This document shows positions 3,586 to 43,548 of a DNA stretch of 43,548 nt, piece after piece. Source of the stretch: Nitrospirota bacterium (GTDB lineage: Bacteria > Nitrospirota > Nitrospiria > JACQBW01). Below the pieces are notes generated by a model, which saw nothing but the letters and a program-made list of their open reading frames with translations, did not search any database and was not told the origin of the DNA. A program made the translations under genes and the position numbers. Every line of letters starts with the position of its first letter. Position 1 is the stretch's first letter. The stretch spans positions 1-43,548 of the forward strand of contig JACOTA010000015.1 in NCBI GenBank assembly GCA_016178585.1, in the 5' to 3' direction.

Positions 3586-4982
3586 ACATGTCCCAATGCA
3601 TCAACAACTTTCATCCTGGCCGCACGATTTGCGGGAATGAACGAGGCAAGGGCCGCCATCAGACAAAGACCCAGCCAGATACCAAACATAAGCCCGCCTG
3701 ATCTGTTGGTGAGGACATTCAATGGAACGGGAGCGGCTTGTCCGGGCGGAAGCCATGTCAGACCCGCATGATTGATAATCTCTGCGGCCGCAGATCCCAA
3801 CAAGATTCCGGCTGTGGCTCCGAGCACTCCAATGATCAACCCCTCAATCAAAAACTGAAGGCGAATCCCTTTGCGTTTTACGCCAAGGGCGCGAAGCGTT
3901 CCGATTTCCTGGGTTCTCTCCATAACGCTCATACTCATCGTATTGATGACCATAAACAGGACAATCACTCCCATGATCGCCGCGATAAATGAAAAAATGG
4001 AACCAAACATGGAGACGACCTGTTTATAAAAAGGCTGAAGTTCCAGGAGATCGCGGACTTCAAGGTCCAGTCTCTTTTCCCGGATCAGTTGTTCAATCCT
4101 CGCGCGGGCAGGACTCATCTCTTCTGTATTGTGGAATTGCAATACAATGCTAATGGCCTGATGCTCGCTACGTCCGAAGAGAAGCTGCTGGGCCAGGTTA
4201 AAGTGCATACCGATGAAACTATCGTCAAGCTCCTTAACCCCCAGAGGAACGGCTCGATCCACATATAGACTGACGACGTTAGGAGCGCCTGCAGTAGTTC
4301 CGGCTAGAAGATCGAGCCTTGGGAGCGTGCTGTTTTGGTCTCTGCTTGTCAGATCCTTGTCCCGCCCGGTCAGTGAACTAAAATCCCGGTTCAATGAGGG
4401 TGATCCGGAGATAATGGGAGGCTGCTTCGAAGGGCAATCGGTAAGGTGAAGCGGCTTGCAAAGACCGAGGATCCGCCCCACGCCGGCGCCGACGAATCCA
4501 CGTGTGATATCATCGTCGACAAGCCCCGTCTCTGACCTGGGATATCCGCGTCCCATGTCATACTCATCCCATTTTTGCATCTGTCGGTAGTCTAATGGAA
4601 CAAGCCCAACCCCGAAAAACGTCTTCGAAACATCGGCATCGAAGTTTCCGGCAATTCCAAAGAGGTTTATAGTGGGGGTAATCACGGCGATCCTGGACTT
4701 GAGGAGAGGATCTTGTGAAAGGAGAGAAATCACCGACGAGTAATCAGGTATCCCATAGGCTGAAGGATTTCCGGAACCATATTTGAAATATCCATTACGG
4801 AAAAGCGCAACGTGCCCCCCTTGTTTAACGGCATTCGTTTGAAGCCCCAGGACAATGTAATTTACAAATTCGCCGAAGAGGAGCATCGACATTGCACCCA
4901 CGGCAATTGCGGAAATGGTCATCAGGGATCGCCTGGTATTTCGGAAAATATTACGGAAGGCGGTTTTGAGAAGAAGGTTCAT
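3582..4982 (-). CDS. ABC transporter permease, FtsX/MacB/LolE type
   Basis: 466 residues. The N-terminus (LLLKTAFRNIFRNTRRSLMTISAIAVGAMSM) is the usual FtsX/MacB start with the first membrane segment. It is followed by a large periplasmic region of about 260 residues and three C-terminal segments (from about 325 to 460) containing MERTQEIGTLRALGVKR, the conserved coupling motif facing the ATPase. Permeases of this class do not move substrate through the membrane; they drive mechanical work on periplasmic lipids or proteins. Its start overlaps the ATPase stop by four bases. Only one permease is present, so it should act as a homodimer, as in MacB rather than LolCE. Confidence 0.9.
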   Translation of the reverse strand: MNLLLKTAFRNIFRNTRRSLMTISAIAVGAMSMLLFGEFVNYIVLGLQTNAVKQGGHVALFRNGYFKYGSGNPSAYGIPDYSSVISLLSQDPLLKSRIAVITPTINLFGIAGNFDADVSKTFFGVGLVPLDYRQMQKWDEYDMGRGYPRSETGLVDDDITRGFVGAGVGRILGLCKPLHLTDCPSKQPPIISGSPSLNRDFSSLTGRDKDLTSRDQNSTLPRLDLLAGTTAGAPNVVSLYVDRAVPLGVKELDDSFIGMHFNLAQQLLFGRSEHQAISIVLQFHNTEEMSPARARIEQLIREKRLDLEVRDLLELQPFYKQVVSMFGSIFSFIAAIMGVIVLFMVINTMSMSVMERTQEIGTLRALGVKRKGIRLQFLIEGLIIGVLGATAGILLGSAAAEIINHAGLTWLPPGQAAPVPLNVLTNRSGGLMFGIWLGLCLMAALASFIPANRAARMKVVDALGHV

Positions 4983-5725
4983 TTAGTCTCCGATCTGCGC
5001 TCGACAAGCTCCCCGTCCCGAACGACGAAAACTTCCTGGGCATGAGAGATCAGCTGTGGATCATGGGTTGAAAAAAGAAACGTCGCGCCCTGCTCTTCCC
5101 TAACCCGATGCATGATCTCAATAATCGCGGCTCCGGTCTTGCTATCGAGATTGGCTGTGGGTTCGTCCGCAATCACCAGTCCGGGACCCTTGACCAACGC
5201 CCTTGCAATGGCCACGCGTTGCCGCTGTCCGCCGCTAAGCTGATTGGGACGGTGATCCGCATGTCGATCTAATCCTACGGATTCGAGTATTTTCAGGGTC
5301 CTTCTTTGACGTTCCAGCTTGGGCAGCCCCAGGAGGATTAAAGGGTATTCCACGTTCTCGTAGGCGCTCAGGACCGGAATTAAGTTAAAACTTTGAAAGA
5401 TAAACGAAATGTTCCGCGCGCGAAACTCTGAAATCTGGTTGTCCGTAAGCTCGGCGATCGGTTGACCGAAGATGCGAATGCTCCCTTCCGTCGGGAGGTC
5501 AAGGCCTCCTACAAGATTTAGAAGCGTTGTCTTCCCGCTTCCGGAGGGGCCCAGGATCATTGAGAACCGATTACGAGGAATTTCAAGGCTAATGGTCTTG
5601 AGGGCTGGCACGCGAATCTCTCCGGATTGATAAATTTTGGAAACGCGATCAAAAATCACCGCCGGGGCGGTGGCCCGGTTGTCATCGGGAGTCTGAATTC
5701 CAGCTTGCAATATGCCCTCGCTCAT
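4979..5725 (-). CDS. ABC transporter ATP-binding protein, LolD/MacB-like
   Basis: 248 residues with Walker A GPSGSGKTTL, Q-loop FIFQSFNLIPVLSAYENVEYPL, signature LSGGQRQRVAIARAL, Walker B LVIADEPTANLD and H-loop STHD. The NLD after Walker B and the Q-loop context place it in the LolD/FtsE/MacB branch. It is the first gene of the cassette. Its promoter (TTGACA 5793-5788, 18-bp spacer, TATGTT 5769-5764) is overlaid by TetR-type operators. No clear Shine-Dalgarno site lies before the ATG. Confidence 0.93.
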   Translation of the reverse strand: MSEGILQAGIQTPDDNRATAPAVIFDRVSKIYQSGEIRVPALKTISLEIPRNRFSMILGPSGSGKTTLLNLVGGLDLPTEGSIRIFGQPIAELTDNQISEFRARNISFIFQSFNLIPVLSAYENVEYPLILLGLPKLERQRRTLKILESVGLDRHADHRPNQLSGGQRQRVAIARALVKGPGLVIADEPTANLDSKTGAAIIEIMHRVREEQGATFLFSTHDPQLISHAQEVFVVRDGELVERRSETK

Positions 5726-42057: not shown

Positions 42058-43206
42058 TTAACAACAGGATGTCTCCGCTTCGCCTGCCGGAGGACAACAA
42101 CTCTCTGAATTTGAAATTTCAGACCGAACCGTTCCCGGCTCATTCACCGTAAAGAGAGTTTTGTATGGCTCTCCCTTTAATTTTGATGCGGTATCGGTGC
42201 AGATCTCCACCCTTTTGTTCCGGGGAAAATAATGGCCTTCCTCATCCATAATCCCCTTGAAGGGACCCAGATAAATGGCCGTCTGGCCGATGAAATTGCA
42301 CCCTTCCTTTTTCTCAAATTTAAATCCTCTCACGGTGAGGGAATAAAAAGGATAGCCTTCCACCTCTTTCCAGAAGGCTTTCTTAATGATTTCCAGACCG
42401 TAAAAACCGGCCTCTTCCAGATAGGCCAGAAACTCTTCCTGGGTGAGTGCCCCTGAAATACACTCACCCCAGAGCTGGGGATTCAAGGCCAGTTTGGCCG
42501 AAACAGGATCTTCAGCGATAATATCTGAAATCACCGCTCGTCCATGATCTTTTAAGACCCGCCACATTTCCGCAAAGACCTTCTTTTTATCGGCCGAGAG
42601 GTTAATCACGCAATTGGAGGTGATCAGGTCAACCGTGCGATCCTCGACCGGAATGGCTTCCAGGTATCCCTTGCGAAATTCGACTACGTCGAATTCAAGG
42701 TTCTGAGCAACCGGAATTTTGTTTCGGTCGGCCACCTCCAGCATCGATGGCGTCATGTCCACGCCAATAACCTTTCCGGTTGGACCGGTCTTTTTGGCCG
42801 CGATAAAACAATCAATGCCCCCTCCCGAACCAAGGTCCACCACGGTCTCTCCCGCTTTTACCTGTGCTTGAGAAATGGGAGAGCCGCACCCATAAAACCG
42901 GTCGATCACCTCCTGCGGAATATGGCTGATCTCTTCAGTATTAAAATTCACCGGACAACAGAGCTCTTTTTGGGGCACCTCTGCCGCTTTTCCATAAAAT
43001 GCCTGTACCAGGTACCGGGTCTTTTCAACATTAAACGACAGGACACAATTCGAATGAAGAAGCGCCACCTCTTTTTCAACCTCGATTCCTGACCCATCGC
43101 TTCCGCAGGAGATGGCCCCCTCTCCCATGGCATGGTAAATGATTGGAGCTTGAAATCCCGATTTTAAATTGAATTGATTTTTCCGGCTTTCTGCCAGATC
43201 GACCAT
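42058..43206 (-). CDS. Arsenite-methyltransferase-like SAM enzyme (C-terminal half of a UGA-split gene)
   Basis: 382 residues from the first ATG (43206). The SAM motif I is [12 protein letters not shown] (122-133). SNCVINLS (C199) and [10 protein letters not shown] (C249) match the arsenic-binding cysteines of ArsM. YGCGSP (C107) and the terminal [13 protein letters not shown] add more thiols. It is in frame with the radical-SAM-like upstream frame: only a TGA (43254-43252) and 15 sense codons separate them, and those codons ([19 protein letters not shown]...) read as protein. The ATG has only a weak AAAGAG at poor spacing. A fusion interrupted by UGA is likely. Confidence 0.8.
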
Positions 43207-43251
43207 GGTCTCTTTAATCAGGTTGATATAAAGATCATAGTAAGGGTCCTC

Positions 43252-43548
43252 TCATTCAATATCTCCTTTGCCGGTCAGACTTTTCGTATAGAAATAACTA
43301 TGCTCGATGTCCCCTCCCCCGGTTATAAAACGGAAGGGGTCTGCCTGCAGCCCTTTTTTATGGGCTACCGTGGCCTGGCGGAACTGTTTAGCCACTACAC
43401 TATTCTCCAGAAGGTCCTTCATCGACCTCTCAAATACATTCCCCAGATCCAACTTTGAAGTGTTGGCAAACGAAGCGGAGGGATAGAGGTGTCCATCGGA
43501 ATAAAGACAAAGGCTTTCCCAGCAGGCATTCCCAAGATCAAATTTAAC
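43252..43548 (-). CDS. Radical-SAM-like protein C-terminus (partial, gene enters from window end)
   Basis: A frame open from 43548 to a TGA at 43254-43252 (98 residues). NACWESLCLYSDGHLYPSASFANT looks like the auxiliary Fe-S (SPASM/twitch-like) segment of a radical SAM enzyme, and ITGGGDIEHSYFYTKS its end. The 5' part is outside the window, so the radical SAM CxxxCxxC motif cannot be seen. Continuity with the methyltransferase frame is described in the next-gene entry. Family call moderate. Confidence 0.55.
   Translation of the reverse strand, partial: VKFDLGNACWESLCLYSDGHLYPSASFANTSKLDLGNVFERSMKDLLENSVVAKQFRQATVAHKKGLQADPFRFITGGGDIEHSYFYTKSLTGKGDIE

Follow-up and report, generated by a model that had tools for sequence, protein, structure and literature searches.

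The question raised by this locus is whether an in-frame TGA between two long open frames is decoded as an amino acid, separates two genes, or interrupts a single one. The window, that is the whole stretch of 43,548 bases that was analysed, is contig C15 of an 82-contig Nitrospirota genome (G000, 96% complete), and frame translation confirmed the claim of the initial annotation that one TGA, at 43254-43252 on the minus strand, is all that lies between the two frames. Upstream of it, 98 codons (43255..43548, minus strand) are open as far as the window edge at 43548, and downstream a further 397 codons are followed by a TAA, which closes the ORF at 42058 (42058..43251 with the stop, minus strand). 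The first ATG past the TGA is at 43206 (43204..43206, minus strand), 15 codons on. In 429 kb of G000, 94 TGA codons have 60 open codons on either side, and both sides are coding-like in 5 of these, so the join of the two frames exceeds chance; the window TGA has the longest gap to the following start codon among the five. Rfam, tRNA, and promoter/terminator scans of the window returned nothing relevant. Four options had been listed for the TGA (selenocysteine, stop read-through, a nonsense mutation, and a split gene), and it is the nonsense mutation that stands, with an assembly break added to it, while selenocysteine and a natural two-gene split fall away.

The two frames had been described as radical-SAM-like followed by arsenite-methyltransferase-like, and domain matches agree with this on both sides of the stop. 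The upstream frame is the C-terminal part of a radical SAM/SPASM half, with a match to SPASM (PF13186) and a weak one to radical SAM/SPASM maturases. Past the TGA, the frame consists of a linker and an ArsM-type methyltransferase (PRK11873/NF008823, E 6.8e-71) with a SAM-dependent methyltransferase domain (PF13847, E 2.7e-32; CmArsM, E 2.4e-39), in which the cysteines of YGCGS, SNCV, and GEC fall on CmArsM Cys72, Cys174, and Cys224 in an alignment with CmArsM structures. The missing N-terminal half is found elsewhere in G000, on contig C3, where a frame at 3626-5176 stays open for 517 codons to the contig end. Its protein matches Radical_SAM (PF04055) with 93 bits against a cut-off of 29.5, carries the CxxxCxxC motif as CNLTCTHC, and includes a PqqD-like segment that scores just below the cut-off. 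The two frames are one gene of about 837 codons, encoding a PqqD-like segment, a radical SAM domain, a SPASM-like region, and an ArsM-like methyltransferase.

The same arrangement is found well beyond this genome. Homologues were found at 80 loci when bacterial and archaeal genomes were searched, and wherever the alignment extends to the query start, the frame of the relative runs on upstream, stop-free, into ...GGGDIEHSYFY..., which shows that these relatives are fused proteins. Among the loci fetched, at least 53 distinct relatives carry both halves in a single uninterrupted frame, with 704 to 1008 codons between stops. When the haplotypes and the family are compared, the frame is interrupted only in the window haplotype, since C3 is open across the site to its contig end and the 53 relatives are uninterrupted. 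The initial annotation had read the 15 codons between the TGA and the ATG as plausible protein, and the motif DPYYxLY directly after the stop is indeed conserved in homologues, so the residues past the TGA are protein and not spacer. At the position of the TGA itself, the residue across 62 distinct sequences is Ala in 30, Gly in 24, Ser in 3, and Thr, His, Lys, or Glu in 1 each, with the window contributing the one stop; none of the 62 has Cys.

How a stop came to stand in this frame is best explained by comparing C15 with C3. Apart from the window itself, a DNA search of G000 found a single location, C3:4649-5178, which matches the first 530 query bases (43019..43548 of the window, minus strand) with 95% identity. 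As C3 has a length of 5178 bases, the contig stops at the end of the overlap. Where the window has TGA, C3 has GGA (Gly), a single-base G-to-T difference. The overlap holds 29 base differences in all, comprising 20 synonymous codons, 5 nonsynonymous codons, and 1 stop. All but one of the mismatches lie within overlap positions 97-295, and the final mismatch is at position 390, 140 bases before C3 ends at 530. This 140-base tail would fit a k=141 assembler at the point where a variant bubble closes, although the opposite end of the overlap, with only 96 identical bases before the first mismatch, does not fit the same reasoning. A protein search of G000 returned only these two partial copies, plus distant radical SAM proteins, and the N-terminal half occurs once (on C3) and the methyltransferase half once (on C15), with only the overlap doubled. 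Given that each half is found once outside the overlap and that both are cut at it, the simplest reading is one locus, split where haplotypes differ.

We therefore consider that, very probably, the fused radical SAM-ArsM gene was assembled as two haplotypes at a locus split by the assembly, and the TGA is a nonsense difference carried by one of them. Two sequence variants over about 300 bases would have led the assembler to break the gene between C15 and C3, whose ends appear to be haplotypes of one locus, and in the C15 variant a single G-to-T change would have turned the Gly codon GGA into TGA. That change may be a rare nonsense allele or a read or assembly error. A cell truly carrying the TGA would make a radical SAM half that terminates after about 440 residues, and little or none of the methyltransferase half, whose translation would have to restart at the internal ATG; such a restart at ATG 43206 could yield a 382-aa ArsM-like protein. 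More generally, an in-frame stop near a contig end is a common trap, in that it may reflect variation between strains or an error of assembly. The neighborhood of the fused gene on C3 has features of its own. Two genes sit immediately upstream of it, one carboxymuconolactone decarboxylase/AhpD-like and the other short and thioredoxin-like (L146 2937-3230 and 3338-3595; PF02627, PF13192), and the three genes perhaps form one operon. C3 also has a short inverted repeat, where opposite-strand ORFs at L146 293-400 and 932-1039 share their first ~34 residues (MSLRAPKGAWQSYRKVLRLLHFVRNDSFLTLFLG).

Two stretches 95% identical within one assembly could also represent two paralogous gene copies, one of them decayed by a nonsense change. 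This is unlikely, as the assembly contains the N-terminal half and the methyltransferase half only once each, and both run off a contig end at the overlap. Strictly, a variant of this reading, in which two near-identical paralogues have been partly collapsed by the assembler, is still conceivable.

Less probable still is that the window holds two genes, with the TGA closing a radical SAM gene and ATG 43206 opening a separate one for the methyltransferase. The ATG does lie just 15 codons past the TGA, and stand-alone ArsM-like relatives exist in other genomes, their matches beginning about 65-82 residues further in. However, in the closest homologues the two halves form one fused protein, the residues between the TGA and the ATG are conserved as protein, the C3 frame continues through the site without a stop, and by eye no strong ribosome-binding site is seen in the 25 bases 5' of ATG 43206 (TTATATCAACCTGATTAAAGAGACC). 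A natural split gene was accordingly rejected on the 53 fused relatives.

It is just as improbable that the organism reassigns UGA to glycine or commonly reads through it. A glycine at the site recalls the code in which UGA is read as Gly, and it was this residue in C3, together with the failure to find release factor 2, that led us to consider reassignment: prfB (RF2) does not rise above the cut-off in G000 or in its sister genome G002. Stop usage, measured on 429 kb of G000, argues otherwise. Of 207 ORFs with a length of 250 aa or more, 68 end in TGA, and stops with coding-like sequence on both sides are rarer for TGA (5/94) than for TAA (16/97) or TAG (8/40), from which it follows that UGA is a normal stop here; reassignment was rejected on this usage, and the read-through option of the initial annotation goes with it. 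As for the release factor, a second sister genome, G001, has half of prfB at a contig edge, adjoining lnt, and the lnt gene of G001 has no match in G000 or G002. Since lnt is not found in either genome, it is more likely that a segment is missing than that RF2 alone was lost, and the gap in G000 and G002 is most likely an unassembled segment, though the prfB/lnt contig of G001 could still be a contaminant. G000 and G002 are two genomes of one family, and G000 makes frequent use of TGA as a stop. That the nonsense allele is real and is tolerated through partial UGA read-through (inserting Gly or Trp), in a lineage where release factor 2 is scarce or lacking, is similarly far-fetched, and we see no case for recoding at the window TGA.

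The possibility that the TGA encodes selenocysteine, directed by a downstream hairpin, fares worst. It draws on 397 open codons downstream of an in-frame TGA and on a hairpin (TCTTTA-T-ATCA/ACC/TGAT-TAAAGA, 43234-43211, minus strand; 43211..43234) 17 bases past it, which is present as described; moreover, radical SAM and ArsM selenoproteins occur in other families (PMC13188914). Yet the site is Ala, Gly, or Ser in 57 of the 62 distinct sequences and never Cys or Sec. The initial annotation had itself counted the ACC loop, which lacks the usual G, against a classical SECIS, and the folding results bear out this doubt: the hairpin region has a z of -0.64 against shuffles, 44 of 200 shuffles match or exceed its folding stability, and the ten stem pairs are met 4.7 times on average in homologues, with all ten present only in the two haplotypes of G000. 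The hairpin is weak and not a SECIS, and it is identical in the haplotype that has GGA. The selenocysteine machinery likewise does not reach cut-off in this 96% complete genome. SelA has no match in G000; SelB has only elongation-factor-type matches below the cut-off, the best of them EF-Tu as named from its sequence; and matches to tRNA-Sec (selC) are all below the gathering score, the eight checked being tRNA-Ser, -Leu, and -Trp. The best SelD match falls short of its threshold (79.9 bits, cut-off 125), and by its sequence the matching protein resembles thiamine-monophosphate kinase (ThiL). Selenocysteine was rejected on the residue column, the missing sel genes, and the hairpin, leaving it the most remote of the readings considered here and removing a false selenoprotein candidate.

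With the TGA read as a nonsense difference at an assembly break, the stop itself is ordinary, and the part worth attention is the fused enzyme, which is mildly interesting. Every NCBIfam match shown for the window protein is below its curated cut-off, and therefore no existing model names the fused protein. One near counterpart is ArsM (NF008823; CmArsM structures 4fr0 and 4kw7), with which the methyltransferase half aligns over 264 residues, keeping the cysteines at 72, 174, and 224, and members of the fused family also share a Cys-rich tail at the end. In contrast to ArsM, the window protein scores 238.9 against the NF008823 cut-off of 263 and sits fused behind a radical SAM protein. ArsS, the arsenosugar radical SAM (seleno)protein (TIGR04167), is likewise a radical SAM protein tied to arsenic methylation; however, the window protein matches it weakly (66.8 against a cut-off of 300), and in known systems ArsS is a separate protein whose Sec is in its own GxxU motif. 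ArsL is a radical SAM enzyme that works with an ArsM-type methyltransferase, ArsM, and this pairing is what the fused protein has in common with it. In arsQML, the arsinothricin biosynthesis cluster with ArsL and ArsM (PMC8552651; NF040538), the two are separate genes, whereas here they are a single fused protein, scoring 207.4 against the NF040538 cut-off of 500. The arsenite methyltransferase selenoproteins NF041536 and NF041537 share the ArsM-type domain, but their Sec sits within their own UxxG or CxxU motifs and not before DPYY, and the window protein scores far below their cut-offs.

The fused PqqD-like/radical SAM/SPASM-ArsM family is spread across Nitrospirota, Elusimicrobia, Acidobacteria, the anammox bacterium Scalindua, Nitrospinota, Dadabacteria, and others. 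A literature search found no radical SAM-ArsM fusion, and in a plasmid search the only matches were distant radical SAM ones with less than 60% identity. An intact fusion of this kind, present in many phyla and below every NCBIfam cut-off, may make an as yet unknown organoarsenical. Within the family (L003-L116), two groups can be told apart at the SPASM end: one has the motif CxxCxxxxxCGGGDxEH, and the other, which includes the window gene, is without those cysteines (DPFRFITGGGDIEH).
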